From Longimicrobiales bacterium (GTDB lineage Bacteria > Gemmatimonadota > Gemmatimonadetes > Longimicrobiales > Gaopeijiaceae): DNA of 64,000 nucleotides. Shown here one piece after another: positions 22,510 to 46,990 of the stretch (its first letter is position 1; each line of letters opens with the position of its first letter). A program made the position numbers and the translations under genes. The notes beneath the pieces were generated by a model. It ran no database searches and was not told the DNA's origin. It saw only the letters and a program-made list of their open reading frames with translations. The stretch is from assembly GCA_951813395.1 (NCBI GenBank), contig OX638356.1, positions 1,219,340-1,283,339 on the forward strand, given 5' to 3'.

Positions 22510-23509
22510 CCCGCACCGCCCGCTTCACCAGGTTCCCGAGCAGCGGAATCTTGAAGTGGTTGTAGTCGAGCGGATCGGCGCCCCTGACCGCGAGCTCGCC
22601 GGCCATCTCGGCGGTCTCCTCGTCGCGGGGGCGTCCCCGCACGAGGTCCTCGACCGCGGTCATGCGGCGCGGGACGCACTGCACGGCCCCGGCCACGATA
22701 CGGGCGTCCTCGATGACGCCGCCGTTCACCCGCACCGCCGCGGCCACGCTGACCAGCGCGAAGTCCCAGGTCTTCCGGTCCGCGACCTTCTCGAAGTGGA
22801 AGTCGGCGCCCGCCCAGCGGCCCGGGACGCGGATCGCGGTGAGCAGGTCGCGCTCTCCCAGCACGGTCATGCGCGTGATGTCGACGCCGGGCGGCATGAA
22901 GAACTCCGCCGCGGGGACCACCGTCTCGCGGCGCGCGTTCCGCACGATCATCTCGGCGTCGAGCGCCACAAGCGCCGGAGCCACATCGGACGGGGTGACG
23001 GCCACGCAGCGGTCGGCGCCGAAGATGGCGTGCTCGCGGTTCATCGCGCCCGGGGCGCCCGCGTAGCAGGTGTTGCCGCCCGCGCGGTAGCAGGTCATGC
23101 CGTAGCGGTAGTACCAGCAGCGCGTGTCCTGGCAGACGTTGCCCCCGATGGTGCCCGCGTTTCGGATCTGGGGACTCGCGACCTGCGCCGCGGCCGCGGC
23201 CAGGAGCGCGTACCGTGACCGGATGAGGGGGTCAGCCTCCACCGCGGCCAGCGTGGTCATCGCGCCGATCGTGACCCCGCGGTCGCCGTCGGGGCCGGGG
23301 CCGCCCTCCCTTACCCCCCTGAGCTCTTCGATCCCCTCGAGGTCGATCACCACGGCGGGCTGCTTGCCTCGGTTCTTGAACCAGTCGAAGCTGTCGTAGC
23401 CGCCGGCCAGCGGCCACGCGTCGGCCCCGTGGCGGCTCAGCAGATCGAGTGCGCTGCTCAGGTCGGTCGGCTGCAGCAGGTCGAAGCCGGTCATCATGTC
23501 GTTCATCAT
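22499..23509 (-). CDS. molybdenum hydroxylase FAD-binding subunit (PaoB-like)
   Basis: The 336-residue product has the FAD-binding PCMH pattern (WPLAGGYDSFDWFKNRGKQP and QIRNAGTIGGNVCQDTRCW). Four cysteines in the order CQDTRC, C, C (near residues 125-150) resemble the extra [4Fe-4S] loop of E. coli PaoB and 4-hydroxybenzoyl-CoA reductase. A CO-dehydrogenase flavoprotein C-terminal domain completes it. It passes electrons from the molybdenum subunit via 2Fe-2S centres. It is the last gene of a three-gene operon and begins 10 bases after the large-subunit stop. Confidence 0.85.
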   Translation of the reverse strand: MMNDMMTGFDLLQPTDLSSALDLLSRHGADAWPLAGGYDSFDWFKNRGKQPAVVIDLEGIEELRGVREGGPGPDGDRGVTIGAMTTLAAVEADPLIRSRYALLAAAAAQVASPQIRNAGTIGGNVCQDTRCWYYRYGMTCYRAGGNTCYAGAPGAMNREHAIFGADRCVAVTPSDVAPALVALDAEMIVRNARRETVVPAAEFFMPPGVDITRMTVLGERDLLTAIRVPGRWAGADFHFEKVADRKTWDFALVSVAAAVRVNGGVIEDARIVAGAVQCVPRRMTAVEDLVRGRPRDEETAEMAGELAVRGADPLDYNHFKIPLLGNLVKRAVRATS

Positions 23510-23519
23510 GGCCGCCTCC

Positions 23520-25928: not shown

Positions 25929-26592
25929 GGGAGACCTCCCCGGCACCGGTCGCGCGGGCGGCGCCCGATGCCTCCCGTGCCGCCCGCATCACCCCGTTCA
26001 GGTAGTGGTCGTAGGCGCCGCATCGGCAGAGGTTGCCGGACATCGCGCGGCGGGCTGCGTCCCGGGTGGGGTTCGGGTTGGCGCGGAGCAGCGCGGCGGC
26101 CGCCATCACCTGCCCCGGCGTGCAGAATCCGCACTGCGGGCCCAGCTCGTCGATAAACGCCCGCTGCACGGGATGGAGCTCGCCGCCGGGGCCCTCCAGC
26201 CCCTCGACCGTCGTGATCTCGCGCCCGCGCACCCGTTGCGTGAGCGTCGAGCAGGAGTAGTGCGCCACTCCGTCGATCATGACCGTGCAGGCCCCGCACT
26301 CGGCACGATCACAGCCGAGTTTCGTGCCGGTGAGTCCCAGCTTGTAGCGAAGCGTCATCGCGAGCGTCTCCTGCGGGAGAACGTCGACGCGGCGCGTGCG
26401 TCCGTTCACCTCCAGCGAGATCAGCCGGCCGACCGCGCCTCGCGCGGCCCCCTGAGGCGCCGGGAACCACGACATCGCCGACACCGAGGCACCGGTCGCG
26501 ATCACGCTCTTGATGAAGCCGCGGCGCGAGAGGGCGTCGCCGCCCGGAAGTGGCGAAAGCAACCCCTGCCAGGACGGGTCGTGTCCGCTCAA
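25921..26592 (-). CDS. molybdenum hydroxylase 2Fe-2S subunit with Tat signal (PaoA-like)
   Basis: The 223-residue product has a twin-arginine signal (LSRRGFIKSVIATG), then two iron-sulfur domains. The plant-ferredoxin-type cluster is CDRAECGACTVMIDG with a later Cys (SCSTLT), and the second is CGFCTPGQVM with LCRCGAYDHY. It exports the heterotrimer to the periplasm, as in E. coli PaoABC. The best start is TTG at 26592, 7 bases after GAGGAGG. An out-of-frame ATG-AAT-TGA lies across this start. It is the first gene of the operon. Confidence 0.88.
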   Translation of the reverse strand: MSGHDPSWQGLLSPLPGGDALSRRGFIKSVIATGASVSAMSWFPAPQGAARGAVGRLISLEVNGRTRRVDVLPQETLAMTLRYKLGLTGTKLGCDRAECGACTVMIDGVAHYSCSTLTQRVRGREITTVEGLEGPGGELHPVQRAFIDELGPQCGFCTPGQVMAAAALLRANPNPTRDAARRAMSGNLCRCGAYDHYLNGVMRAAREASGAARATGAGEVSHG

Positions 26593-29317: not shown

Positions 29318-29802
29318 CGCCGCCGCAGCCATCGACAGGGTCGCCCCCCCGCAGGCCGACCCCGTCGCGGTACGGGCACACCTCGACACGCTGACCAGGC
29401 TGGCTCGCCCACCGTCCCGTCGAGAAACTCCAGCTCCTCGACCAGCACCGAGACCGCCGCGTCCCCCGTGTTGCCGTCCGCGTCCGTCGCCGTCAGCGTG
29501 ATCATGTGAACGCCCGCCGACGGCAGGGTCACCTTCAGCGCCGAGCCGGTACCGAGAGCCCCGTCGATCGAGCTGGCCCAGGCCAGCGCCGCGCCCCCGA
29601 GCGGACCGTCCTGCGGATCGATGGCACTGCCGGCCAGCGGAACCGGCGCACCCTCCAGCACCGCCAGCCCGGAAGCCGGCGCGGTGATAACGGCGGTTGG
29701 TGCGTTCGGGCCGGTCGGCATCTCCTCCGAGCATGCCGTGAGCGTCAGCATGAGATTAGAGACCCAGACTGAACGGTTGCCTTGGGGCTGCGGTTCCGTC
29801 AC
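29212..29802 (-). pseudogene. remnant of an Ig/PKD-domain lipoprotein
   Basis: Residues about 34-120 form a PKD/Ig-like domain (APVPLAGSAIDPQDGPLGGA, HMITLTATDADGNTGDAAVS) after a poor lipobox (MLTLTAC) that lacks a proper hydrophobic signal. After VEELEFLDGT the frame becomes Arg/Pro-rich and runs into the opposite strand of the M16 gene, so the original C-terminus seems lost. Another minus frame may carry the continuation, which would imply a frameshift. Expression and function are doubtful. Confidence 0.4.
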
Positions 29803-31761: not shown

Positions 31762-33265
31762 CAGGCCGTGGATAAAATCCGCCCCACGAGGCTCTTGTGA
31801 ATGAGTTAAATTAGGAGGACACTCGGACCTCAGCGAGAGGTGACGGCGATGGCGATAGGCAAGATGCCGGGTGAGCGGCAGGAGGAGCTGTTCATCGCGG
31901 CCAGTGCGGTCGGGGCGCTGGACAACCCGTTCTACGCGGCGCTGGACAAGCTGCTGCGCAAGAGCGGTTTCGACGAGTTCGCGGAGGAGACGTGCCGGGA
32001 GTTTTACGCGGAGCGGATGGGTAGGCCGGGCCTCGCGCCGGGCGTGTACTTCCGGATGCTGATGGTGGGATACCTGGAGGGGATCGGCTCGGAGCGGGGT
32101 ATCGCGTGGCGGTGCAGGGACTCGATCTCGTTGCGGGAGTTTCTGGGCTACGGTCTGGCGAAGACGCCGCCGGAGCATTCCACGCTGTCGAAGACGCGCA
32201 AGCGGCTGAGCCTGGAAGCCCACGGGGCGGTGTTCGGCTGGGTGCTGGAACGGCTGCAGGAGTCGGGGCTGCTGCGAGGCAAGACGGTGGGGGTGGATTC
32301 GACGACGCTGGAGGCGAACGCGGCGATGCGCGCGATCGTGAGGCGTGATGAGGGGACGGAGTACGACGCGTGGCTGGAGCAGTTGGCGAAAGCGTCGGGG
32401 ATCGAGACGCCGACGCGGCAGGACCTTGCGAAGATGGACCGCAAGCGCCCGAAGAAGGGGTCGAACAAGGACTGGAAGCATCCGCACGACCCGGAGGCGC
32501 GGATCACGAAGATGAAGGATGGCCGCACCCGCTTGGCGCACAAGCTCGAGGTGGGGGTGGACATGGAGACCGGTGCGGTGGCCGCCGTCACGGTGCAGAC
32601 GATGGACGGTGGCGACACCGCGTCGCTGCCGGTGACGCTGGACGAGACGGAGCAGCGGCTGGCGGATGTGGGAGCGGAGCCGAAGGAAGTGGTGGGCGAC
32701 AAGGGCTACCACTCGAACGCGACCATGACGGGCGTGAAGAAGCGGGGACTGCGAACCTATGTGAGCGAGCCGAACCGGGGCCGCCGGAAATGGAAGGGCA
32801 AGCGGGAGGCGCAGCAGGCCGTGTACGGCAACCGCCGCCGCATCAAGGGCGAGCGGGGAAAGCGGCTGCTGCGCGAGCGAGGGGAAAAGCTGGAGCGGAC
32901 GTTCGCGCACCTGCTCGGCAGCGGAGGGTTGCGCCGCGTCCACGTTCACGGACACGAGGAGATCCGAAAACGGATGCTCGTTCACGCCGCGGCCTTCAAC
33001 CTCTCGCTGGTGATGCGCACATGTTTCGGCTTCGGCACCCCGCGTGGCCTGCAGGGCCTCGCAGCGGCGGCCGCGGCTCTCGCCGACGCGTCCGCACACA
33101 GTCTTGCCGCCTTTTTTCGCCACATCGGGCGCGTTCTCGGCCTCCAGGGCACACAGGTCGGCCCCGTCCGCCGCTCAGCCGCCTGATGCACAACAAAACC
33201 GCAATCACGTCGTTCTTGCCGCTTCCACCACCGGCTTCCCAGCGAGCCACTTCTTCCACGGCCTG
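31762..33265 (+). mobile_element. IS1182-like insertion sequence with CTAG target duplication
   Basis: The ends carry an imperfect terminal inverted repeat: the left end begins caggccgtggataaaat and the right end, read inward on the other strand, begins caggccgtggaagaagt (11 exact bases, then partial). CTAG flanks both sides, at 31758-31761 and 33266-33269, as a 4-bp direct (and palindromic) target duplication. The 1504-bp element encodes a single transposase. It sits inside an older, decayed IS3-type transposase gene, and precise excision would restore that local reading frame. The element looks recent and possibly active. Confidence 0.85.
31849..33186 (+). CDS. IS1182/IS5-type DDE transposase
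   Basis: The 445-residue product begins at ATG 31849 (an in-frame GTG lies at 31840). The N-terminal domain shows the usual transposase start (GFDEFAEETCREFYAERMGR, PGVYFRMLMVGYLEGIGSER). The DDE core has the first Asp in VGVDSTTLEANA and the second in VVGDKGYHSN. A probable Glu lies in LERTFAHLLGSGGLRR near the C-terminus. Basic residues are frequent and there is no frameshift, so the enzyme looks intact. The IS1182 assignment rests on domain layout and the CTAG duplication; IS5-group alternatives are possible. Confidence 0.85.
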   Translation: MAIGKMPGERQEELFIAASAVGALDNPFYAALDKLLRKSGFDEFAEETCREFYAERMGRPGLAPGVYFRMLMVGYLEGIGSERGIAWRCRDSISLREFLGYGLAKTPPEHSTLSKTRKRLSLEAHGAVFGWVLERLQESGLLRGKTVGVDSTTLEANAAMRAIVRRDEGTEYDAWLEQLAKASGIETPTRQDLAKMDRKRPKKGSNKDWKHPHDPEARITKMKDGRTRLAHKLEVGVDMETGAVAAVTVQTMDGGDTASLPVTLDETEQRLADVGAEPKEVVGDKGYHSNATMTGVKKRGLRTYVSEPNRGRRKWKGKREAQQAVYGNRRRIKGERGKRLLRERGEKLERTFAHLLGSGGLRRVHVHGHEEIRKRMLVHAAAFNLSLVMRTCFGFGTPRGLQGLAAAAAALADASAHSLAAFFRHIGRVLGLQGTQVGPVRRSAA

Positions 33266-34636: not shown

Positions 34637-35700
34637 TCACGGCCCTGCTCCGATCCGTATCCGGGTGGACCAGCCGCGGCCCGGCAGGGGGTAGTCGGCG
34701 AGAAGCGAGGCGCGCTCGTCGAGGAGGTTGTTCACGGCGAATTCGAGCCGTCCCGGCGCCTTGCCGAGCGCCACCGGAATCGCGATGCCGGCGTCGAGCA
34801 CGGTGTAGCCGCCGAGCGCGTTCAGCGTTGATCCGGGCAGGGTGCGCCGCTCTCCCACGTGGGTGGCAGCGGGCACGAGAGTGACGCCGCGAACCGTCAG
34901 GCGCAGCGAGAGGTCGGCCGTGAAACGGGGACGGTACGCGACCTGGCCATCGAGCACGGGGCCGGTGTACTCGACCTCCGACCAGGCGGCGCCGGCGGAC
35001 AGGGAGTGCGTGCCCGCGAACGTGCTCAGGTCGACGGTGGCGCCCAGTTCCAAGCCGCGCCGCGTCACGTCGTAGTTGTCGGGGCTCCAGACGAAGCGAT
35101 GATCCGGGAACCAGAGGATCATGTCGTCGAGATCCGCCCGGTAGACCATTCCGTGCAGCCGCCCCGCCGCCCGGCCCAGCGACCACGCGTGCGTCACCGA
35201 GGCGGACAACTCCCCGCGAACGCGTTCCGGCCGGAGATCCGGGTTCGGCTCTACGAGCACGCCCTCCTGGAAGAAGAGGTCGCCGAGCCCGGGGGGCGAG
35301 AAGCCACGGCTCCAGCGCAGGTCGAGAGTGAGCCCCTCGTGCGCGAGCGTGGCGTCCACGGCGGGCGAGACCGTGGTGCCGTTCAAGAGGTCGTGGCGGT
35401 CGGCGCGAACGGCCGCGCCGAAATCGAGGCGGACGCCGTGCCCCAGTTCGCGGACGTGTCCGGCGCGCGCCCATGCGCCCAGTTCGCCAAGCTCGACTGC
35501 TGGAGACGCCAGCACGTTGGACTCGATGTCGAGCCGGGCCGCATCGAGACCGAGCCGCAGAGATGGCCCCCACCATCCCTCCACCGCGACTTCGGCGCGG
35601 CGCGGCTCGCGGACGGCGCGGTCCCGTGGGCGATCGAGACCGCGGCCCGCGAGGCGGTCGAGGAGGGGCTGGATTCGCCTTCCACGTTTCCTATGAAACC
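34637..35700 (-). pseudogene. 5'-truncated TonB-dependent receptor, probably btuB
   Basis: About 350 residues of a C-terminal beta barrel are readable (TLDLRWSRGFSPPGLGDLFF, VEPNPDLRPERVRGELSASV, LEFAVNNLLDERASLLADYP). The signal peptide, TonB box, plug and first barrel strands are missing. Upstream sequence ends at about 35700, where the IS110 element begins. SPPGLGDLFFQEG and the NNLLDERASLLADYPLPGRG ending resemble BtuB/siderophore receptors. The riboswitch-controlled btuFCD genes lie just beyond the IS110 element, which favours a lost vitamin B12 receptor. That link is inference. Confidence 0.65.
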
Positions 35701-35772: not shown

Positions 35773-37005
35773 TCACGCCGCGGCTGCAGCTTCCACCGTG
35801 TATCCGAGCTTGTGGAGTTGGCGCATGTGATAGCGGCGGCGGCGCTCCTTGTCGCGCCGGAGGAAGAAATCGTCGCCCAGATCTTCGTGCGACGCACCCG
35901 TCGAGAGCATGTGCCAGAGTGCCACCAGAATGGCGTGTTGCACGACCGAGATGGCCTTTCGGGGGCCGCCTCGAGCCTTATGGCGATGGTAGAGCGCCGA
36001 GTAATAGCTGCCCCGGGTCCGTGCCGCCGACCACGCCACCTGTCCAAGCGTCGCGCGCAGCCAGGCATTGCCCTTGCCGGTGGACACGGACTTGCGCTTT
36101 CCGGCGCTCTCGTGGTTGCCCGGACAGACCCGGGCCCAGGAAGCCAGGTGCCCGGCTGTCGGGAAGCACGTCATGTCCGGCCCGATCTCGGCCAGAATCG
36201 TCTGGGCGGCACGCTGCGCGATACCCGGCATGCTCTCGATGATGTCAACAGCCCGTGAAAAAGGGCGCGTACGCTCCTCGATGCGGGCGTCGAGTTCGTC
36301 GATGTGCTGCGACAGCTCGTCGATCAGCCGGAGATGCCGGCCCAGCATGAAGCGGTAGTGTTCCGTCATCCGGCCGGCGGTAGCTTCGGCCAGCTCCTTG
36401 CGCTTCTTCTTCAGCGACCCCTGTGCCAGCCGGGCGAGCGCTTCCGGGGCTTCGACGCCTGCCGCCAGAGCATCCAGGATCCCCCGCCCCGTCTTCCCCA
36501 TGATGTCCGTCACGACCGAGCCCAGCTTGATGTTGGCCATCTCGAGCGTCTTCGCCACCCGGTTGATCTGGCGGCTCCGCTCGCCGATCAGCGACTTCCG
36601 CAGACGGGTCAGGTCTCGCAGATCGCGGATCTCCGGCGGCGGAACGAAGCTCCCTCTGAGCAGGCCGCACTCCAGCAGCCGCGCGACCCACTCGCAATCA
36701 CGGACATCCGTCTTCCTCCCCGGAACGTGCTTGATGTGGCGGGCGTTGACGAGCAACAGCTCGAAGTCGTCCTCAAGCACGACGTAGACCGGCCTCCAGT
36801 ACACGCCCGTCGACTCCATCGCCACATGGGTCACGCCGTTGCCCCGAAGCCACTCCCGGAGCGCCTCCAGTCCCGCCAGCGTCGTCGCGAACGTGCGGAC
36901 AGCCTTGTGCCGGCCGGCCACCTCCCTGCCCGGCGTACGAACGCACGCCACCACGGTCTTCTTGTGCACGTCGAGGCCCGCGCACCGTTCGATCATGACA
37001 TCCAT
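35773..37005 (-). CDS. IS110-family DEDD transposase
   Basis: The 410-residue protein has the RuvC-like DEDD domain: first Asp in AGLDVHKKTVVACV, Glu in HVAMESTGVYWRPV, and Asp residues in GRKTDVRDCEWVARLL. The C-terminal Tnp_20 domain carries the serine region (AGHLASWARVCPGNHESAGK) with a helix-hairpin-helix-like MPGIAQRAAQTILAEIGPD. AGGAGG lies six bases before the ATG. No frameshift or stop interrupts it, so it may be active. Enzymes of this family are guided by a bridge RNA from the element's own non-coding end. Confidence 0.9.
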   Translation of the reverse strand: MDVMIERCAGLDVHKKTVVACVRTPGREVAGRHKAVRTFATTLAGLEALREWLRGNGVTHVAMESTGVYWRPVYVVLEDDFELLLVNARHIKHVPGRKTDVRDCEWVARLLECGLLRGSFVPPPEIRDLRDLTRLRKSLIGERSRQINRVAKTLEMANIKLGSVVTDIMGKTGRGILDALAAGVEAPEALARLAQGSLKKKRKELAEATAGRMTEHYRFMLGRHLRLIDELSQHIDELDARIEERTRPFSRAVDIIESMPGIAQRAAQTILAEIGPDMTCFPTAGHLASWARVCPGNHESAGKRKSVSTGKGNAWLRATLGQVAWSAARTRGSYYSALYHRHKARGGPRKAISVVQHAILVALWHMLSTGASHEDLGDDFFLRRDKERRRRYHMRQLHKLGYTVEAAAAA

Positions 37006-37394: not shown

Positions 37395-37640
37395 AACGTG
37401 CCGGCTGTAGCGAGGGGGCCACCGGAAGTCGGTCCGAAGCCGACGCGGCCCCGCCACTGTAGGAGGCCCGGATCCCGAGCGGATCCGGCACGGCGCGCTC
37501 GATAGCCACTGGGATTCCGCCGCGGGCGACTGCGGGCGGATCTTGCGGATGCCGCGGATCACACTTGCGGCTTGCTGGTCCCCGGGAAGGCGAGCGTCGT
37601 CGCCTCGAGCCAGGAGACGCGGCTCCCTCGGCCTTGCACC
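37395..37640 (+). promoter_or_regulatory. cobalamin (adenosylcobalamin) riboswitch
   Basis: The conserved core is visible in order: a GAGGGGGCCACCGGAAGTCG segment, gacgcggccccgccactgta, then gccactggg (37504-37512), cgggaaggcg (about 37577-37586) and finally gagccaggagac, the B12 box. The arrangement and spacing match cobalamin riboswitches that control btu genes in Gram-negative bacteria. It lies just upstream of btuF, whose ribosome site is 10-20 bases after the last conserved helix, so translation or transcription of btuFCD is likely lowered by vitamin B12. Confidence 0.85.
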
Positions 37641-37662: not shown

Positions 37663-38655
37663 GTGTACCTGGAGATCCAGACCGCGCGCATCCACGCTGG
37701 CGGCACTCCGCCCCGGCGGCGCACACGTCCCGTCTTGCCGGCCGCGCTGGCCCTGCTCGCGTCGTGCGCACCGGTCGACAGGACCGGCCCGTCAGGGGTC
37801 TCCGTCACGGACGACACCGGGCGCGCCGTTTCGCTGTCCGCGCCCGCCGCACGGGTATTCTCGGTCCTCCCTTCGCTTACCGAGTCGGTGGCCGCCCTCG
37901 ACGCTGATGTGCTCATCGCGCGCACGCGCTTCGATCAGGCGCCCGAACTCGCGCACCTCCCGGTCCTGGGCGGCACCATCCGCCCGAACCTGGAGGCGCT
38001 GGCGCGGCTGGAGCCCGACCTCTTCATCAGCTGGGACGATCCGGGTCAGCGCACCGTGGCCGACCGCGTCGAGGCGCTCGGGATCCCGGTCTACCGCGCC
38101 AACGTGCAGACGATCGCCGACGTGCGCAGTCACCTGCGTCGGTTGGGGGTGCTGCTTGGCCGCGTCGAGCGTGCTGATCAAGTGGTCGACGCGCTGGATC
38201 AGGCACTCGCGCGCGTGGCGGGAGCCGTCCGGGGGCGCGACCGAGTGTCCGTCTACTACTCCGTCTGGCATGATCCGCCACAGACCACCGGTCCGGGTAC
38301 CTTCATCGACCAGGTCATCGAGCACGCCGGAGGCCGCAACGTCTTCAGCGACGCCTCGCGCCCGTGGCCGCGGCTGTCCCTGGAGGCGATCGTACAGCGC
38401 AACCCGGACGCCCTGGTGATCGCGCGCCATTCGGCAGACGAAGCGGGAGCACCCTGGCTCGACGGGCCGGGTTGGCGGGAACTGGAGGCGGTTCGCACAG
38501 GGCGGTATCTGGTGGTCGACGGGGACCTGTTCAATCGTCCGGGCCCCCGCGTGGCCGAGGCGGCCGTGCTGCTGACCCGCTTTCTGCACCCGGGGTCAGG
38601 ACTGCTTCCCGATGACGGCGCCCCGCAGTGGGCTCGCCCGGCACCGCGCCCATGA
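37663..38655 (+). CDS. btuF: vitamin B12-type ABC transporter substrate-binding lipoprotein
   Basis: The product of about 330 residues starts at GTG after GGAGGG (six-base gap) and has a lipobox (LPAALALLASC). The periplasmic-binding fold of the BtuF/FhuD/TroA type is seen in ARVFSVLPSLTESVAALDAD, LEALARLEPDLFISWDDPGQ, HAGGRNVFSDASRPWPRLS and RNPDALVIARHS. The riboswitch in front and the permease and ATPase genes behind (each overlapping by a start/stop) show it serves cobalamin uptake. A frame open upstream to 37543 runs through the riboswitch and is not used. Confidence 0.85.
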   Translation: MYLEIQTARIHAGGTPPRRRTRPVLPAALALLASCAPVDRTGPSGVSVTDDTGRAVSLSAPAARVFSVLPSLTESVAALDADVLIARTRFDQAPELAHLPVLGGTIRPNLEALARLEPDLFISWDDPGQRTVADRVEALGIPVYRANVQTIADVRSHLRRLGVLLGRVERADQVVDALDQALARVAGAVRGRDRVSVYYSVWHDPPQTTGPGTFIDQVIEHAGGRNVFSDASRPWPRLSLEAIVQRNPDALVIARHSADEAGAPWLDGPGWRELEAVRTGRYLVVDGDLFNRPGPRVAEAAVLLTRFLHPGSGLLPDDGAPQWARPAPRP

Positions 38656-39695
38656 GCACTGACGGGTCTGCCGGCGGACCCGGCCAGCCCCGCGGGACAC
38701 CGTCGCATACTCCCCGCCGCCTCGCGCTCCTGGCCCTGGCCGCCCTGGTCGCGCTGGCCCTCAGCGTCTCGTTCGGCGCGTCCGGCCTGGGGCCCGGTGA
38801 CCTCTGGCGCACCCTTGCCGGCGAGGCGGACCCGGCGACGCGAACCATCCTCCTGCAACTGCGCCTGCCTCGCGCTGCGCTGGCCGCACTCGTGGGGGGA
38901 GCGCTCGGAATCGCCGGCTGCACATTTCAGGCGCTCCTGCGCAATCCGCTTGCCGAACCGTACGTGCTGGGCGTCTCGGGCGGGGCGGCTGTGGGCGCGG
39001 TGGCCGTGACGGTGACCGGCATCGGAATCATCCTCCCCTGGACGCTTCCGCTCGGAGCCTTCGCAGGCGCGCTCGCGGCGATGGCGCTGGTCCTGCAGAT
39101 CGCCCGCCGCGCTTCGCCGGGCGGCATGGACACGCGCGTCCTGATCCTCGCGGGCGTGATCGCCGGCGCCTTCTTCAACGCGATCATCCTCCTCCTGCTG
39201 TCCATGGCCGATGTCGAGTCCTTTCGCTCGGCGATCTTCTGGATGATGGGCAACCTCTCGGCGTCCGGCTGGGGATCCACGGCGATCCTTGCCGGGTTGC
39301 TGCTGCCCGCCACGGCCGTGGTGCTTTCGCTGGCGCGTGCCTTCAACCTGCTCTCGCGCGGCGAGGAAGTCGCGTACTACCTCGGCGCCTCGGTCGAGCG
39401 GGTGAAGCTCATCGCGTACGTGGCCGCATCGCTCATGGTGGCGGCGTCGGTCGCGGCCGGGGGAGTGATCGGCTTCGTCGGGCTGATCGTGCCGCACGCC
39501 GTCCGGATTGCCTGGGGGAACGACCATCGCTTGCTGCTGCCCGCATCGTTCCTCGCCGGGACGGCCTTCCTCCTGCTGGCGGACACGGCGGCGCGGATCG
39601 TGGTCGCGCCGGCCGAGCTGCCGACCGGCGTGGTCACGGCAGTGGCCGGGGTGCCGTTCTTTGTGATTCTGCTGATGCGCGGGGGGCGGCGGTGA
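38652..39695 (+). CDS. btuC: cobalamin ABC transporter permease
   Basis: The 347-residue product has nine or ten transmembrane helices with FecCD/BtuC landmarks: LRLPRAALAALVGGALGIAG, LRNPLAEPYVLGVSGGAAVG, and GVIGFVGLIVPHAVRI, and late VAGVPFFVILLMRGG. The ATG overlaps the btuF stop (ATGA), so the two are translated together. It forms the membrane channel with BtuD. Confidence 0.9.
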   Translation: MSTDGSAGGPGQPRGTPSHTPRRLALLALAALVALALSVSFGASGLGPGDLWRTLAGEADPATRTILLQLRLPRAALAALVGGALGIAGCTFQALLRNPLAEPYVLGVSGGAAVGAVAVTVTGIGIILPWTLPLGAFAGALAAMALVLQIARRASPGGMDTRVLILAGVIAGAFFNAIILLLLSMADVESFRSAIFWMMGNLSASGWGSTAILAGLLLPATAVVLSLARAFNLLSRGEEVAYYLGASVERVKLIAYVAASLMVAASVAAGGVIGFVGLIVPHAVRIAWGNDHRLLLPASFLAGTAFLLLADTAARIVVAPAELPTGVVTAVAGVPFFVILLMRGGRR

Positions 39696-40549
39696 AGCGG
39701 GCGGTGGGGGAAGGCGTGGCGTCGGCTGACTGGCGTCCCGTCCTGCGCGGAGACGGCCTGGCCTACACCCACCCGCGCGCTCCCCAGCCCGCCGTGCGCG
39801 ACATCTCGCTGTCGGTCGCACCGGGACGCCTTCTCGCGGTCGTCGGGCCGAACGGGGCGGGGAAGACCACGCTGCTGCGCCTCCTGTCCGGAGCGCTTGT
39901 CCCCCAGGCGGGTCAGGTGCGTCTCGATGCCCGCCCGTTGCACAAGCTGCACGACCGGCTGCGCGCCCGCGCACTCGCCGTGGTCCCGCAGTCCGAGTCT
40001 TCGCCCTTCCCGGTCACGGTGCGCGAGATGGTCGGCATGGGACGCTATCCTCACCTGGGCCCCTGGGAGCGTGCGGGAAGTCTCGATCATGCGGTCGTCG
40101 AGCGGGCGCTCGATCGTTGCGCGGCCGGCCACCTCGCCGAACGCCAGCTCGCCAGGCTCTCGGGGGGCGAGCGGCAACGCGCCCGGATTGCACGGGCACT
40201 CGCCCAGGAAGCGCCGGTCCTGCTGCTCGACGAGCCCACCGGAGGACTCGACCTGCGTTTCCGGATGGAGCTCTTCCACCTGCTGCGCGAACTCCGCGCG
40301 GACGGACTCGCCGTGCTGGTGATCACCCACGACCTCAACCTTGCGGCCAGGTTCGCCGACCGGCTGCTTCTCCTCGACCAGGGGCGCGCGCGTGCCCGCG
40401 GAACGCCGGAGGAGGTGCTGTCGGGCGACACGCTCGAGGAGGTGTACGAATGGCCGCTCAGGCTGGTCCCGCACCCCGGCCCCGGCAGCGACACCGGCGC
40501 GCCTCAGACCGTTCCGCTGCGGAAGGACGCTGCGGATCGAGCCGAATGA
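39692..40549 (+). CDS. btuD: cobalamin ABC transporter ATPase
   Basis: The 285-residue protein has Walker A GPNGAGKTTLL, Q-loop VVPQSE, signature LSGGERQRARIARAL, Walker B VLLLDEPTGGLD and the switch His in VITHDLNLAA. The FecE/BtuD-type sequence VTVREMVGMGRYPHLGPW is present. The GTG start overlaps the btuC stop (GTGA). It powers uptake via BtuC. The stop is followed 57 bases later by the RidA-domain gene, which may be read from the same transcript. Confidence 0.92.
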   Translation: MKRAVGEGVASADWRPVLRGDGLAYTHPRAPQPAVRDISLSVAPGRLLAVVGPNGAGKTTLLRLLSGALVPQAGQVRLDARPLHKLHDRLRARALAVVPQSESSPFPVTVREMVGMGRYPHLGPWERAGSLDHAVVERALDRCAAGHLAERQLARLSGGERQRARIARALAQEAPVLLLDEPTGGLDLRFRMELFHLLRELRADGLAVLVITHDLNLAARFADRLLLLDQGRARARGTPEEVLSGDTLEEVYEWPLRLVPHPGPGSDTGAPQTVPLRKDAADRAE

Positions 40550-40608: not shown

Positions 40609-41739
40609 ATGAGCGTCCCGTTTCGCGCCACCATTCCATTCCCTGTAGCGGCCGCGGTCCTGGCTTTTCTGCTCGCGGCGCCCGTTTCCGCGCAGACGCC
40701 GGAACTCGTCTACCTGTCCAACATCACGGGAACCTCGCGCGACGGCGCGCCGCTGACGGCAGTCGAGGAGCAGACCGCTGCCACCCTGGACGCGCTCGGC
40801 GAGCAGCTGGCGGCGCACGGGCTCGGCTACGAGGACGTTGTCGCAGTCAACGTGTTTCTCAGGGACACGCGCCACTTCCAGGCAATGAACGGCGTCTACC
40901 GCGGCTACTTCACAACAGACCCGCCGACGCGTGCAACCGTAGAGGCCGATCTCCCCGACCGGAACGCGCACGTGCAGATCTCGGCCGTGGCCACGCCGGA
41001 CGACACCGAGATCATCTCGCCGTCGGGACTGCAGTCGCCGGCGCTGCCGTATTCGTGGGGCGTCCGCGCGGGCGACGTGCTGTTCATCGCGGGCGCGACG
41101 AGCCGCGATCCCGACACCTATCAACCCGTCGGAGGCGACGTGCAGGCCCAGACGCGGCGCGTTTTCGGGAACATCGGCATGATCCTCGAGGAGGCGGGCA
41201 TGGGTTACGGCGATCTTGTCGGCTGCAAGGTCTTCCTGGACGACGTGCGCCTGTGGGGCGACATGAACGAAGCCTACCGCGAGTTCGTCACCGCCGACGA
41301 TCCGCCCGCCCGGGCGGCAGTGCGCGGCGGGCTCATGAACCCGGCGTTCCTGGTCGAGATCCAGTGCGTGGCCGAGCGGTCGGACGAACGGCGGGTCGTG
41401 CTGCGAGAGGGTCAGCGGCGGGGACGGTCGCCGCTGTCGCCCGCGATCGCGACGGGTGAACGGGTCTGGCTGGCCGGCATGCTCGCGCGCGGAGAGGACG
41501 CGCGGGCCGAGGCCCGCAACACGCTGGCCAGCCTCGGCGGCACGCTGGAAGCTGCGGGGCTGGGGTTCGCCGACGTCGAGGACGTGTGGGTCTACCTCAC
41601 CGACGTGCGAGACGCGGACGCCGTGCTCCAGGTGCTGGCAGAGGTCATGCCCGGCGACATGCCGCCGGTGACCATCGCCGGGCTGCCGCTGGTGGGACGC
41701 CTGGGCGTCGAGATCCAGATGACGGCGGTGGCGCGGTGA
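40609..41739 (+). CDS. exported protein with three tandem RidA domains
   Basis: The 376-residue protein has a signal peptide (FPVAAAVLAFLLAAPVSAQ). It then shows three RidA/YjgF units of about 105-115 residues: LVYLSNITGTSRDGAP to ISAVATP, ALPYSWGVRAGDVLFIAGAT to QCVAERS, and SPAIATGERVWLAGML to the end. The catalytic-type Arg is present in the first two (PTRATVEADLP, PARAAVRGGL), but the third has PVTIAGLPLVG without it. Cytoplasmic RidA removes reactive imines; a periplasmic, fused form is unusual. I chose ATG 40609 (AGGA upstream); an ATG at 40546 overlaps the btuD stop. Confidence 0.8.
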   Translation: MSVPFRATIPFPVAAAVLAFLLAAPVSAQTPELVYLSNITGTSRDGAPLTAVEEQTAATLDALGEQLAAHGLGYEDVVAVNVFLRDTRHFQAMNGVYRGYFTTDPPTRATVEADLPDRNAHVQISAVATPDDTEIISPSGLQSPALPYSWGVRAGDVLFIAGATSRDPDTYQPVGGDVQAQTRRVFGNIGMILEEAGMGYGDLVGCKVFLDDVRLWGDMNEAYREFVTADDPPARAAVRGGLMNPAFLVEIQCVAERSDERRVVLREGQRRGRSPLSPAIATGERVWLAGMLARGEDARAEARNTLASLGGTLEAAGLGFADVEDVWVYLTDVRDADAVLQVLAEVMPGDMPPVTIAGLPLVGRLGVEIQMTAVAR

Positions 41740-41744
41740 AGATC

Positions 41745-43367
41745 ATGACACCTTCCGCCCGACACGCACCAACCGCCAAGCCGTTCCTCGCCGCCCTGGG
41801 CCTGGCCGCGCTCGGGCTCACCGCCTGCGACCGTCCCCCGCCCACGCCGATCCCCGTCGTCGAAGCCACCATCGCCGGGGTCCAGGAGGCCATCTTCTCC
41901 GGCCGCACGACCTGCCGCATGGTCGTGCAGGCGTACCTGGACCGCATCGAGGCCCATGAGGATCAGATCAACGCGATCACCGTGGTCAACCCGGCCGCCC
42001 TCAACCGCGCCGACGAGCTCGACGCCGCGCTGGCCGCGGGCGACGAGCCCGGCCCGCTCTTCTGCGTGCCCATGCTCGTGAAGGACAACTTCGACACCCA
42101 CGATATGATCACCACGGCGGGCTCGATCGCGCTCGCCACCAGCATCCCTCCCGACGACGCGTTCATGGTGCGCCGCATCCGCGAGGCGGGGGCAATCGTG
42201 CTTGCCAAAACGAACATGGCCGAATGGGCGTTCAGCGCGCGCCAGTCGGTGAGTTCATCCTTCGACACCACGCGCAACGCCTACGCGCTCGACCGCGTCC
42301 CGGCGGGTTCAAGCGGCGGCACCGCGTCCGGCGTCGCGGCCAGCTTCGGGCTCATCGGGCTGGGCAGCGACACCGGCAACTCGATCCGCGGCCCGTCCTC
42401 GCGGCTGGCGCTCGTCGGCATCCGCTCCACGATCGGTCTCACCAGCCGCGACGGGGTGGTGCCGCTCTCCTTCGATCGGGACATCGCCGGTCCGATGGGG
42501 CGGACCGTCGAGGACGTGGTGCGCGTCTTCAACGTCGTCGCCGGCCATGATCCCGCCGATCCCTACACCGAGGCCGGGCGCGGCCGCCGTGAAGACGACT
42601 ACACGACGTTCCTCGATCCGGACGGCCTGCAGGACGCGCGCATCGGAGTGCTCCGCGCACTGGTCGACACGGAAGATGCGGATTCGGCCGTCGTCGCGGT
42701 CTTCGAGCGCGCGCTCACCGAGCTTGCCGCGCTCGGCGCCGAAGTCGTCGATCCGTTCGACTTCGACGTGCAGGCCCAGCTGGACCGCGAGAACATGTTC
42801 TGCGGCCGCTTCCGCTACGACATGCACGTCTACCTGAACTCGCTCGGCGACGCCCCGTTCACCGACGTGCTACACGTCCTGGAGACCGGCGAGTACTCCG
42901 ACTACGTCGAGAACTCGTTGCGCCGAGCCGGGGAAACGCCCCTCGACCTGCACCCCGCCGAACGGGATCCGCCGTGCCCGGACTACCTCGAAAACGAGGG
43001 GCGCCAGGCGTATCTGGCCGACCTCGTGGCCGCCATGGATGCCGCGGACGTCGACGCGCTCGTCTACCCCTCCTGGCTCAGCCCGCCGGCGCACATCGAC
43101 CGGGGGCGCGAGGAGTACAGCGGCGACAACAGCCAGCGCGTTGCGCCCGCCACCGGAATGCCCGCGATCACCGTCCCCATGGGGTTCACGGAGGACACGC
43201 ACCCGGCCGGCCTGCAGATCCTGGTGCGGCCCTACGCGGAGGGCCTGCTGTTCCGGCTCGCCTACGCGTACGAACAGGGTACGCGGCACCGCCGCCCGCC
43301 ACCGGGATTCGAGGAGCTGGCGCCCGCTGCGGTGCCCGCTGCTGCGCCCGCCGCAGACCAACCATGA
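41745..43367 (+). CDS. lipoprotein amidase-signature enzyme
   Basis: The 540-residue product has a lipobox (LGLAALGLTAC). Its amidase triad lies in FCVPMLVKDNFDTHDMITTA (Lys), PAGSSGGTASGVAAS (cis-Ser) and GSDTGNSIRGPSSRLALVG (nucleophile Ser; the usual GG is GN). A GTG at 41736, overlapping the RidA-protein stop, is an alternative start. The direct coupling suggests amidase and RidA proteins act on a shared product, perhaps an amide that yields a reactive enamine or imine; that is inference. A similar exported amidase is at 18.9 kb. Confidence 0.85.
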   Translation: MTPSARHAPTAKPFLAALGLAALGLTACDRPPPTPIPVVEATIAGVQEAIFSGRTTCRMVVQAYLDRIEAHEDQINAITVVNPAALNRADELDAALAAGDEPGPLFCVPMLVKDNFDTHDMITTAGSIALATSIPPDDAFMVRRIREAGAIVLAKTNMAEWAFSARQSVSSSFDTTRNAYALDRVPAGSSGGTASGVAASFGLIGLGSDTGNSIRGPSSRLALVGIRSTIGLTSRDGVVPLSFDRDIAGPMGRTVEDVVRVFNVVAGHDPADPYTEAGRGRREDDYTTFLDPDGLQDARIGVLRALVDTEDADSAVVAVFERALTELAALGAEVVDPFDFDVQAQLDRENMFCGRFRYDMHVYLNSLGDAPFTDVLHVLETGEYSDYVENSLRRAGETPLDLHPAERDPPCPDYLENEGRQAYLADLVAAMDAADVDALVYPSWLSPPAHIDRGREEYSGDNSQRVAPATGMPAITVPMGFTEDTHPAGLQILVRPYAEGLLFRLAYAYEQGTRHRRPPPGFEELAPAAVPAAAPAADQP

Positions 43368-43645: not shown

Positions 43646-46600
43646 CTACTCCGGCGGCCACCTCGGCAGCGCCCGTCCCGTCGTCCACGGCACGCCCGCC
43701 TCCTCCAGCCGCGCCTCGAGCGCCGGCAGGTCGGTTTCCACGAGTTGCTGCAGGTCGGGGTAAAGCCCTCCGAACAACCTCCGGGCGATCCTGTACTGCT
43801 CGCGATGCGTCCCCGTCGGCCCGTGCATGCCGTTCCAGTGCCCGCGCACGATCTGGTTCACGCGCCCCGTGATCCCCGGCAGGTCGGGCTCCGCACGCGA
43901 AGTCCGCGTTCGCGATCCTTCCAGCGTTTCCCGCAGGTCGAGAAGTCTCAGCTCGATCGCGCGGGCCTCGGTCATGAGCTCGCCCGGCGCAGCGGGCCAG
44001 CGCTGCAGCGCCTGCTTGATGGCCGAGATCCGTTGCGCGGCTTCCGCTGCCACGCGCTGGCTGCCCGTGACCGCGCGGAGAAGCTCGCCCGTCTCGCGCT
44101 GGAACGCGAGGATCCCCGCCCGGTCCTGCTGCGCAATCGCGGGCCGGTTGAGCGGCGCGATCGTGAACGGCACCGGCCCGGCCAGCTCCGTCACCTCGCC
44201 GTCGACGCGCTGCGCCAGCGACACCGTGTAGTCGCCCGGGAGCGCCATCGGCCCGTTCCCGCCGCCACCGAAACCGCCGAAGCCGCCGAACCCACCGCCT
44301 CCCCCGCCGCCCCCGGCCGTCACCGGGTTGTAGCCCGGGTAGCGGTAGTTCCATACGGCCCTGTGAACGCCCCGGGACGTCGAACCCGACACTACATTCA
44401 CGACGGCGCCCATCTCGTCGCGGACCGTGAGGAACACGCGCGGCGCCTCCTCCCGATCCTCCTCCTCCAACTCCTCCCAGCTGGGATACGGCGTGTCCTC
44501 GCCCGCGCGCTGCGCCCTCCGCTCGGCTGCGCGTCTCTCCGCCTCACGCGTCCGCAGCGTCTCGCCCATCCAGTAGGTGAACGTCACGCCCAGCGGTGGG
44601 TTGTCGGCCTGGTAGAAGTCGCTGCCGTTCGCACCGCCGGGGTTCCAGGGCACGTACATGTCTCCATCGGCCACCTCGAAGATGTGACCGCCGCCGGCCA
44701 GGATCTCGGCCGAGGCACGCGCCAGCTCGCGGAGCGGCGTGTAGTCGTCGACCACGTAGAAGCTGCGGCCGAACGTCGCGGCGACCAGGTCGCCCTCGCG
44801 CTTCTGGATCTCGAGCTCGCGCACGGCGATCGTGGGCAGCCCGTTGTCGAAGTCCATCCACGACTCGCCCCCGTCGACCGACACGAAGGCCCCGAACTCG
44901 GCGCCCAGGAAGAGCAGCCCCGGCTCGACGTGGTCCTGCACGATCGAGAAGGACGGGCTGTTGTCCGGCAGACCTCCGGCGATCATGGTCCAGTCCACGC
45001 CGCGGTTTGTGGACTTGAGCACGTAGGGGCGGAAATCGTTGCGCTTGAAGTTGTTCACCACCACGAACACCTCGTCGGGGTTGTGCAGTGAGGCCTCGAC
45101 GTCGTGCACGAAGCTCGTGTCCGGCACACCGGGCAGGCTTGACACCTCCCGCCAGTTCTCGCCCCCGTCCTCGGTCACCTGCACCAGCCCGTCGTCGGTG
45201 CCCACGTAGATCAGCCCCTCGACCAGCGGCGATTCCGAGACCGCCACGATGTGTCCGAACGATGACGTCGACCGGTTCTTGGCGACCGCGTCGACGCTCC
45301 ACACGCGCCCCATGACCTCGAGCTGGTTGCGGTCGATGTTGCGCGACAGGTCGTCCGAAATCGCCCGCCAGCTCGTTCCCTGGTCGTCGCTCTGGAAGAG
45401 GATCTGCGCGCCGAAGTAGATGCGGTTGTTGTCGTGGGGCGACATGTGCAGCCCGGCGTCCCAGTACCAGCGCAGCGGCGGTCCGTCGGGGTCCGGCTGC
45501 GGCTGAATGTCCAGCCGCTCCTTGCTGGACCGGTCGAAGCGCGACAGCACCCCGTACTGGAGCTGCGAAATGATGATGTCGGGGTTCTCGGGATCGATCA
45601 CCGGGTCGAAGCCGTCGCCGCCGAGGGTCACGTACCAGTCCGAATTGCGTATGCCGCCGCCCAGCGTCTGCGACGGGCCGCCCAGCGTGTTGTTGTCCTG
45701 CGTACCGCCGTAGACGTAGTAGAACGGCTCGTCGTTGGAGGTTGCGACCTTGTAGAACTGGGTCAGCGGCAGGTTGGGGAAGAAGTGCCAGCTTTCGCCG
45801 AAGTCGTGAGTCTCGTACAGCCCCCCGTCGTTGCCCAGAATCAGGTGCTCGGGGTCGTCCGGGTCGAAAGCGAGTGCGTGATGGTCGACATGGACGCCCT
45901 GCGTGGGCAGCCGGCCCCAGGTCTCGCCCCCGTCGTCGGACATCTGGACGAAGGTGTCGAGCGAATAGATGCGGTCGAAGCGGTGCGGATCGGCGTAGAG
46001 CTCGTGGTAGTACATCGCCGCGCCCGACTGGTAGCGCGAGGTGCGGCTCCAGTTCTCGCCCATGTTCTCGGACCGGAAGGTACCGCCGTTGTTCCCGGAT
46101 GCCTCGACGATGGCATACAGCACGTCCGGGTCGATCGGCGAGATCGCCATCCCGATCCGCCCCTTGTCGCCCGACGGCAGCCCGCGGTCGATCGCGCGCC
46201 AGGTATCTCCGCCGTCGGTGGACTTGTGGACGCCCGACCCCGGCCCGCCGTCGATCATCGTCCACTGGTGCCGGCGGCGCTGCCACGACGACGCGTACAT
46301 CACGTCCGGGTTGCGCGGGTCGAAGTAGACCTCGTTGACGCCGGTGTGCTCGTCGATCTCGAGAACCGGCTCCCAGGTCTCGCCGCCGTCGGTGGTGCGG
46401 TAGAGCCCGCGCTCGCCACCTGCGGCCCACAGCGGTCCCTGCGCCGCGACGAACACCGTGCGCGAATCGTCGGGATGCACCGCGATCATGCCTATGTGCC
46501 GCGACGTCTCGAGCCCCATGTTCGTGAACGAACGCCCGCCGTCGACCGACTTGTAGACGCCGTCGCCGTATCCGACCGAGCGCTGCCCGTTGTTCTCGCC

Positions 46601-46990
46601 GGTGCCGACCCAGAGGGTCAGGTGGTCGTTCGGATCGAGCGTGATCGCGCCGATCGAATACGAGCCGTAGTTGTCGAAAATCGGCGTCCAGGTGGTCCCG
46701 GCGTTGGTCGTCTTCCACACGTTCCCCGACGAGGCCGCGACGTACCAGGTGCTGCGGTCGGTGGGGTCGACCGCGATGTCCGCGATGCGCCCCGAGGCGA
46801 CCGCCGGGCCGATGCTCCGCCAGCGGAAGGAGGAGAGGAGGCCGGCGTTGAGCTCGGCGGGAGCGTCCTCGTCGCCGCCGGGACCGCCCCCGCGCTGCTG
46901 GGCGGGGAGGGTCGGGGGGGCGGCGAGGGAGACGAGCAGGGTCGTGGCGAAAAGGGCCGCGAGGGGCGTGCGGAAGCGATGGTCGTGCAT
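43646..46990 (-). CDS. large exported BNR/VPS10-type propeller protein
   Basis: The 1114-residue product has a signal peptide (FATTLLVSLAAPPTLPAQ). Many BNR (Asp-box) repeats follow, such as KTTNAGTTWTPIFDN, KSVDGGRSFTNM, RTTDGGETWEPVLE, KSTDGGDTWRAID and SVDGGESWMDFDNG, which form the ten-bladed VPS10/sortilin-type propeller. A linker rich in Gly and Phe (GGFGGFGGFGGGG) lies near residue 900, followed by a helical C-terminal domain. Relatives are abundant in Gemmatimonadota and Acidobacteriota; peptide or glycan binding is likely, function unproven. The neighbouring six-bladed propeller gene is in the same direction. Confidence 0.82.
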   Translation of the reverse strand: MHDHRFRTPLAALFATTLLVSLAAPPTLPAQQRGGGPGGDEDAPAELNAGLLSSFRWRSIGPAVASGRIADIAVDPTDRSTWYVAASSGNVWKTTNAGTTWTPIFDNYGSYSIGAITLDPNDHLTLWVGTGENNGQRSVGYGDGVYKSVDGGRSFTNMGLETSRHIGMIAVHPDDSRTVFVAAQGPLWAAGGERGLYRTTDGGETWEPVLEIDEHTGVNEVYFDPRNPDVMYASSWQRRRHQWTMIDGGPGSGVHKSTDGGDTWRAIDRGLPSGDKGRIGMAISPIDPDVLYAIVEASGNNGGTFRSENMGENWSRTSRYQSGAAMYYHELYADPHRFDRIYSLDTFVQMSDDGGETWGRLPTQGVHVDHHALAFDPDDPEHLILGNDGGLYETHDFGESWHFFPNLPLTQFYKVATSNDEPFYYVYGGTQDNNTLGGPSQTLGGGIRNSDWYVTLGGDGFDPVIDPENPDIIISQLQYGVLSRFDRSSKERLDIQPQPDPDGPPLRWYWDAGLHMSPHDNNRIYFGAQILFQSDDQGTSWRAISDDLSRNIDRNQLEVMGRVWSVDAVAKNRSTSSFGHIVAVSESPLVEGLIYVGTDDGLVQVTEDGGENWREVSSLPGVPDTSFVHDVEASLHNPDEVFVVVNNFKRNDFRPYVLKSTNRGVDWTMIAGGLPDNSPSFSIVQDHVEPGLLFLGAEFGAFVSVDGGESWMDFDNGLPTIAVRELEIQKREGDLVAATFGRSFYVVDDYTPLRELARASAEILAGGGHIFEVADGDMYVPWNPGGANGSDFYQADNPPLGVTFTYWMGETLRTREAERRAAERRAQRAGEDTPYPSWEELEEEDREEAPRVFLTVRDEMGAVVNVVSGSTSRGVHRAVWNYRYPGYNPVTAGGGGGGGGFGGFGGFGGGGNGPMALPGDYTVSLAQRVDGEVTELAGPVPFTIAPLNRPAIAQQDRAGILAFQRETGELLRAVTGSQRVAAEAAQRISAIKQALQRWPAAPGELMTEARAIELRLLDLRETLEGSRTRTSRAEPDLPGITGRVNQIVRGHWNGMHGPTGTHREQYRIARRLFGGLYPDLQQLVETDLPALEARLEEAGVPWTTGRALPRWPPE

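Follow-up and report, generated by a model that had tools for sequence, protein, structure and literature searches.

In a stretch of 64,000 nucleotides from a Longimicrobiales bacterium (GenBank assembly GCA_951813395.1, contig OX638356.1; hereafter the window), a gene for a protein with an export signal and three RidA domains (the triple RidA, 40609–41739, + strand) and the lipoprotein amidase gene behind it (41736–43367, +) seem to form the downstream end of a putative operon for B12 uptake that is headed by a cobalamin riboswitch. Within the genus, as judged from gene calls and profile matches, the strongest association of the triple RidA is with B12 uptake or salvage genes and cobalamin riboswitches. 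There it is part of the B12 locus, and the pair that it makes with the amidase is a single local arrangement. RidA is known as a cytoplasmic damage-control protein acting against the imines produced by pyridoxal phosphate (PLP) and flavin enzymes. An earlier sequence-only reading of the window was centred on the RidA–amidase pair and passed over the riboswitch and the btuFCD-like genes upstream. The explanation preferred here, whose probability is put at roughly 40%, is that of a riboswitch-led B12 operon in which a two-site periplasmic RidA and an amidase serve amide or imine clean-up or nitrogen salvage.

The riboswitch-led gene run and its counterparts in the genus

The aptamer of the cobalamin riboswitch (RF00174) heads the run at 37424–37618 (+) with 37.9 bits against a gathering score of 31.5; its core motifs GCCACTG and GAGCCAGGAGAC are intact, and it is the sole RF00174 match found in this genome under strict filters. 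It is followed on the same strand by genes for a BtuF-like periplasmic binding protein (37663–38655; PF01497, E 3e-22), a BtuC-like permease (38628–39695; PF01032 FecCD, E 1e-90) and a BtuD-like ABC ATPase (39692–40549; PF00005, E 3e-32), and then by the triple RidA and the amidase, so that five genes are close-packed downstream of the riboswitch, the largest gap being the 59 bp between btuD and the triple RidA. By this layout the run has the form of a cobalamin-riboswitch operon. The names BtuF, BtuC and BtuD are used because of the Pfam families together with the riboswitch. In the 59 bp gap, a consensus scan found no terminator-like site, and it found no promoter belonging to the triple RidA itself either, although such a scan does not exclude one.

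Near full-length relatives of the triple RidA were found in 19 of 59 near genomes, namely in 18 of the 23 genomes of the genus (the window's own included) and in one genome of another genus. Genomes are denoted by G numbers, G000 being that of the window, and loci by L numbers. Proximity to B12 genes was taken from gene calls, in which CobT, CobU and CobS were each named by Pfam from one representative and CobC is a histidine phosphatase whose match to the alpha-ribazole phosphatase model lies below cut-off. Of the 18 genomes, 16 (all except G008 and G022) have a B12 uptake or salvage gene on the same strand as the triple RidA and no more than 6 kb away, and they show several arrangements. With RID standing for the triple RidA, these are riboswitch-btuFCD-RID-amidase in G000, riboswitch-btuCD-RID-amidase in G005, riboswitch-btuF-RID-cobTUSC-btuCD in G003 and G016, RID-cobTUSC in G001, G009, G015 and G020 (and in G019, where it is cut by the contig end), RID followed by riboswitch-btu in G006, G007, G011, G012 and G021, and looser arrangements in G013 and G017. 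Under the same strict filters, each genome of the genus has one or two RF00174 matches, and 15 of the 18 (all but G008, G019 and G022) have one no more than 12 kb from the triple RidA, compared with 0.18 expected under random placement; since the genomes are related, these figures are descriptive and do not amount to a p-value.

CobT was matched in 9 of the 23 genomes of the genus. In eight of the nine, G008 being the exception, cobT or what is left of it is the next gene after the triple RidA and has the same orientation; the gap is 7 bp in five genomes and 25 and 99 bp in two others. The eighth is G011 (L157), in which the triple RidA is separated from the riboswitch-btu genes by no more than a short cobT remnant with 45 matched profile positions, which suggests that cobTUSC has been lost there. 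A search of the window's own genome gave no cobT match. After btuD, the place of the amidase is occupied by CbiB at L163, L162 and L159 (G001, G008 and G019), and L159 has in addition a CobD-like gene that scores below its model's cut-off.

Three RidA copies in one chain with an export signal

The open reading frame at 40609–41739 encodes 376 amino acids and carries three RidA domains in a single frame: a signal at about residues 1–29, then copy 1 (~31–129), copy 2 (~134–257) and copy 3 (~262–375). Pfam assigns three PF01042 (RidA / Ribonuc_L-PSP) stretches to it (E 2e-56; 189.6 bits against a cut-off of 27.3), and in a profile search of the genome the separate copies reach 94, 61 and 42 bits, all exceeding the curated cut-off. 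The fusion of three copies, as the sequence-only reading had described it, is thus borne out, and with its tandem PF01042 domains the protein belongs to the 3x-RidA proteins. The export proposed in that reading also holds as a prediction: the N-terminus, read by eye from the sequence, has a Sec-type signal pattern with a hydrophobic core followed by AxAQ, and a simple script found a Met and a hydrophobic stretch ahead of the first RidA domain in 39 of 57 rows of relatives, a set in which several genomes enter twice. The remaining 18 rows comprise two cut by a contig end, six acidobacterial ones with a lipobox-like start and ten that are hydrophobic with the Met beyond the range of the script. 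In the same genome a single-domain RidA (L002, G000:C1, ~856092–856421) has an N-terminus that looks lipoprotein-like by eye, and RidA export may therefore extend past the triple form.

Relatives occur beyond the genus as well. A search of 395 genomes of the phylum with a 35-row alignment as query found the triple RidA in 36 of them at E ≤ 1e-80, and a scan of genome contigs gave 38 loci, mostly titled as Gemmatimonadetes or Gemmatimonadota metagenome-assembled genomes and in some cases as Acidobacteria or Gammaproteobacteria. The recurrence in 19 of the 59 near genomes and in these 36 means that the protein is not a product of chance; on these sequence grounds, it is a real and conserved 3x-RidA with a predicted export signal. 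The 3x-RidA proteins were defined by Niehaus et al. in 2015, for example by EF_0115 of Enterococcus faecalis, and are described in that paper as three tandem RidA domains presumed to form a covalently linked trimer (PMC4433059). It is this description, and not EF_0115 itself, to which the window protein is likened. It differs in its export signal, in one degenerate site of three and in its B12 locus, and its acidobacterial relatives are lipobox-like; the terms 'signal peptide' and 'secreted' are absent from the main text of that paper. The three-domain fusion is thus already known, and predicted export is the unusual feature of the window protein. In the literature search on tandem, secreted or periplasmic RidA, only PMC4433059, PMC3541065 and PMC9537276 turned up.

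The active-site residues were compared in an alignment of 51 rows (47 distinct sequences). Copy 1 and copy 2 keep the Arg of the PxR motif (Arg108, 40930–40932, +, and Arg235, 41311–41313, +), with R in 51/51 rows at both positions, and copy 3 has Val354 (41668–41670, +) in its place, where R occurs in 6/51 rows; the missing catalytic Arg of the third copy, pointed out in the sequence-only reading, is therefore confirmed. The equivalent of Glu120 is found in copies 2 and 3 only, as Glu250 and Glu368, and in copy 1 the position is held by Gln123 (40975–40977, +), which is Q in 45/51 rows and E in 6/51. Among the 47 distinct sequences, the Arg of copies 1 and 2 and the Glu of copies 2 and 3 are invariant, and the copy-3 Arg and the copy-1 Glu vary together, both being gone in 41 and both kept in the same six, all of them acidobacterial. 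In these acidobacterial proteins (L060–L064 and L066), none of the three copies has lost its Arg or Glu, and the N-termini are lipobox-like. In the Gemmatimonadota forms copy 1 is without the N-terminal strand that bears the residue of Tyr17 type, and in copy 3 this position is mostly taken by Leu or Phe.

In Arabidopsis RidA, the Arg holds the acid group and the Glu is contributed by the neighbouring subunit (PMC4960622). The chain of the window protein would close on itself like a RidA homotrimer, and two composite deaminase sites would be kept, one from the copy-1 Arg with the copy-2 Glu and one from the copy-2 Arg with the copy-3 Glu, while the third, formed by copy 3 with copy 1, would have lost both residues. 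The residue pattern fits this simplest reading, in which one interface site lacks both residues and two are complete; with the opposite cyclic direction of the copies, only one site would be complete. The loss of the copy-3 Arg and the copy-1 Glu was perhaps one evolutionary event, so that their joint absence is consistent with two sites and does not prove them. The chain may record how a fused symmetric trimer can lose one of its three shared active sites.

The AlphaFold 2 (AF2) model (pLDDT, the predicted local distance difference test, 89.2; pTM, the predicted template modelling score, 0.86) has its best full-length matches in the chorismatases (5ag3, 5a3k and 4bps), which are single chains of similar size built of RidA-like folds (Foldseek; VIA-align Z 26.8, 281–282 residues aligned, root-mean-square deviation (rmsd) ~3). 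The identity is 14–17%, gene context offers no link to chorismate, and the triple RidA keeps the Arg and Glu of RidA type; the comparison is one of fold alone. As the model aligns end to end with these chains, the triple RidA is predicted to be a single-chain pseudo-trimer; the structure check proposed for the pseudo-trimer has come out in its favour as a prediction. VIA-align also gave end-to-end matches that fall far short of the chorismatases in Z, to FBXO22 chains (Z 14.6–15.3, 244–258 residues, 7% identity) and to 5t13, a cyanuric acid hydrolase (Z 12.1, 272 residues aligned, rmsd 5.0). Most single RidA chains among the structures listed match copy 2.

The amidase and the partners of the triple RidA across genomes

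The amidase gene (41736–43367, +) starts at GTG and overlaps the triple-RidA stop by 4 bp. Its product belongs to the amidase-signature (AS) family (PF01425, E 6e-86, 289.8 bits), and the nearest solved relative is the peptide amidase Pam (1m21, E 5e-76, matched over residues 37–525). Of 26 aligned rows, 23 have the lipobox Cys (C31) and three have a gap at this position, and Lys116, Ser192/Ser193 and Ser216, which we take to be the Ser-cisSer-Lys triad of the family, are invariant in 26/26 rows, the window protein being included twice. The Lys/Ser/Ser machinery is thus shared with Pam; unlike Pam, the window amidase is a predicted lipoprotein in a cobalamin operon, and its likeness to a peptide-amide hydrolase is one of sequence.

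At E ≤ 1e-100 the amidase was found in 34 of the 59 near genomes and in 18 of the 19 that have the triple RidA (exception G012). Within the genus it occurs in 17 of 18 genomes with the triple RidA and in 2 of 5 without it (Fisher p 0.02, uncorrected for kinship). The two genes lie on one contig, on the same strand and within 11 kb in 11 of the 19: touching or nearly touching in two (G000 and G005), 0.8–2.3 kb apart in G006, G017, G021, G022 and G033, and 7–11 kb apart in G003, G009, G013 and G016. In seven genomes they are on different contigs. Among the 19 amidase-bearing genomes of the genus, eight (G004, G006, G009, G013, G015, G018, G020 and G021) have the amidase directly after btuD without the triple RidA. 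A second amidase-like gene in G019, 6 kb from the triple RidA, is a paralogue and was left out of the counts; a match of like size (288 bits) was found at L029, which carries the same triple RidA as G019. Of the earlier claim of a co-translated amidase partner, the overlapping genes and the lipoprotein amidase are borne out for the window, but recurrence of the tight pair across genomes was not found, adjacency being limited to 2/19 genomes, the window's own included. A conserved RidA–amidase operon as a general rule was rejected on this count.

Outside the genus, other partners are met. G033 (genus g12) has RID-MocA oxidoreductase-amidase, with 1 bp between RID and MocA; this order is also found at L161 (G128, g12) and at nine contig loci (L042–L047, L049, L051 and L065), and L041 shows RID-MocA before the locus ends. 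In genus g34 and look-alike loci, the triple RidA is divergent to a creatininase with an export-like N-terminus in 4/4 cases (L054, L055, L056 and L059), and a formamidase-family gene follows on the other strand in 3/3 loci reaching that far; Pfam was run on the genes of L055 and the creatininase of L053, and the other partners were assigned by cluster membership. L053 likewise has a divergent creatininase, and one lies a few genes away in G163 (g37); near the triple RidA of G151 none was seen. Since each of three g34 genomes has seven creatininase matches, a single adjacency is not very rare in itself. At G254, G070, G253, G324, L058 and the acidobacterial loci, no member of a partner cluster is adjacent among the annotated neighbours; in 6/6 acidobacterial loci, a gene beside the triple RidA belongs to a cluster with a PLP decarboxylase of the LysA/ornithine type as its representative. 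Counted by genus, the amide hydrolases with export signals near the triple RidA are AS amidases in two genera and a creatininase with a formamidase in another.

A proposed B12 link in the periplasm and its alternatives

In the preferred explanation, the riboswitch would shut the operon off when cobalamin is plentiful, so that the triple RidA and the amidase would be made together with the importer when B12 is scarce. The triple RidA would hydrolyse small enamines or imines in the periplasm. With less assurance, the amidase might supply or share nitrogenous substrates there, and the pair might then clear away amides and imines or salvage nitrogen outside the cytoplasm, in connection with growth limited by B12. 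The predicted export and the gene neighbourhoods suggest an undescribed role outside the cytoplasm that is linked to B12 supply. A more far-reaching form, in which the exported 3x-RidA, with two working sites and one dead, is an unrecognised extracytoplasmic part of B12 acquisition or of the B12-starvation response and acts with the amidase on a substrate linked to corrinoids or to B12 limitation, must be called doubtful. If the explanation is right, a conserved exported RidA would mean that reactive enamines and imines are handled outside the cytoplasm too, and the repeated placement by cobT or in riboswitch-led btu operons would point the way to a step of B12 acquisition or starvation not yet recognised, in a lineage represented mostly by metagenome-assembled genomes, judging from the record titles.

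Several observations weigh against the explanation. Only 4 of the 18 genomes (G000, G003, G005 and G016) have the triple RidA in an uninterrupted same-strand run led by the riboswitch, and elsewhere in the genus it sits upstream of the riboswitch or apart. The B12-specific NCBIfam models match the transporter genes below cut-off: BtuF with 95 bits against 234 and second to another transporter model, BtuC as the top two models, and BtuD in a near tie of heme and corrinoid transporter ATPases. Within the run, the + strand has two weak patterns resembling terminators, one inside btuC at 39641 and one inside the triple RidA at 40650; four such patterns were found in all, against 1.8 (standard deviation 1.7) expected from shuffles. 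The cyclic pairing of the sites is deduced and not measured, and no enzyme that would produce a periplasmic imine was identified. Outside the genus, no RF00174 match reached the gathering score at L043, L047, L049, L053–L056, L058, L059, L061, L062, L064, L060, L066, L150–L155 and L161, a scan that left out L063 and several g12-type loci, and no B12 gene set was seen beside the triple RidA in g12, g34, g37, g47, family f4 or the acidobacterial loci. Two generic ABC ATPases clustered with BtuD there, one at L147 (8 kb away) and one of a molybdate-type transporter at the acidobacterial loci, and neither is read as B12-related. B12 is therefore not the general function of the triple RidA, and a B12 role for the whole 3x-RidA family was rejected.

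The locus also holds transposases and small genes that resemble toxin-antitoxin pairs by eye, and it reshuffles, so that hitch-hiking comes into question: the triple RidA and the amidase may do general periplasmic clean-up that has nothing to do with B12, their place beside the B12 genes of this genus being due only to a shared region prone to rearrangement. Gene contexts that vary between genera speak for it, as does the absence of the triple RidA from 5 of the 23 genomes of the genus, each of the five nevertheless having one or more cobalamin riboswitch matches. It is considered rather unlikely, though seriously to be reckoned with, as the association in 16/18 genomes in several arrangements and the 7 bp gap to cobT in five exceed what is usual for a passive neighbour.

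Less probable is the dedicated pathway of the sequence-only reading, in which the amidase cuts an amide and the enamine or imine product is hydrolysed at once by the triple RidA. The overlap of the genes in the window and the presence of hydrolases with export signals from three superfamilies (AS amidase, creatininase and formamidase) near the triple RidA across genera agree with it. It has also been reported that one oxidised-chitin pathway can do without neither a deacetylase (a putative D-aminoacylase) nor a RidA protein, although the step there is thought to be cytoplasmic and the role of RidA is given as unknown (PMC9537276). However, direct pairing is limited to the two genomes mentioned, the amidase is found without the triple RidA (in G004, G018, G026, G028, G030 and others), and an imine is not a product of simple amide hydrolysis. 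What survives of the putative amide-degrading pathway is the tendency of the triple RidA to lie near amide hydrolases with export signals, whereas the tight pair is rare.

Still further down stands the view that the triple RidA, instead of being a deaminase, mainly binds, or acts like a chaperone for, a corrinoid precursor, a lower-ligand base or some other small acid. Non-enzymatic roles of RidA do exist, HOCl-modified E. coli RidA being reported to be a chaperone (PMC4284807), and one seemingly dead site and the adjacency to cobT are in keeping with such a role; it is rated as quite improbable, because both predicted sites have their Arg and Glu in 51/51 rows without exception, as an enzyme would show.

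A comparison with corrinoid salvage leads to the last alternative. Non-transport genes clustered with btuFCD, as at the window locus, are known for DUF71-B12 and CbiZ, and in many eukaryotic proteins DUF71 is fused with a pair of RidA-like domains (PMC3541065); RidA domains and B12 salvage meet only indirectly, in this DUF71 paper, and a whole-word literature search found no paper joining RidA, cobalamin and riboswitch. The protein families in the window differ from these, and the genus has no CbiZ match and has CbiB in 3 of 23 genomes. That the amidase (PF01425) is a periplasmic stand-in for CbiZ, cutting corrinoids to cobyrate for remodelling, could be argued from its place after btuD in eight genomes of the genus and after btuD-RID in two more and from the lack of CbiZ (PF01955) matches in all 23, that of the window included, but it is very improbable because CbiB (PF03186), needed for cobyrate, is unmatched in this genome and 19 others of the 23, the three CbiB-bearing genomes carry CbiB and not the amidase after btuD, and the nearest solved relative is a peptide amidase; with CbiB absent, it was rejected as the leading explanation.

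As regards the surroundings, the B12 locus of this genome is decayed, cobT being unmatched and the TonB-dependent receptor truncated. Its C-terminal part lies at 34640–35602 (−) (PF00593; tblastn with three relatives, for example residues 403–734 of 735) and adjoins an IS110 transposase (35773–37005). The partner gene of the receptor (29401–29754, −) is reduced to about its first third, and a second transposase (31849–33186) lies between the two. In several relatives the receptor is divergent to or near btuF, with a cobalamin riboswitch at its 5′ side; outer-membrane uptake in the window's genome may rely on another receptor. A three-gene molybdenum hydroxylase cluster of the xanthine/CO dehydrogenase type is present at 22499–26562 (−), and its 2Fe-2S subunit has a twin-arginine-like N-terminus by eye. 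Convergent with the amidase, a large sortilin/VPS10-BNR repeat protein is encoded at 43646–46990 (−), relatives of which are often found in the same locus, sometimes in two copies.

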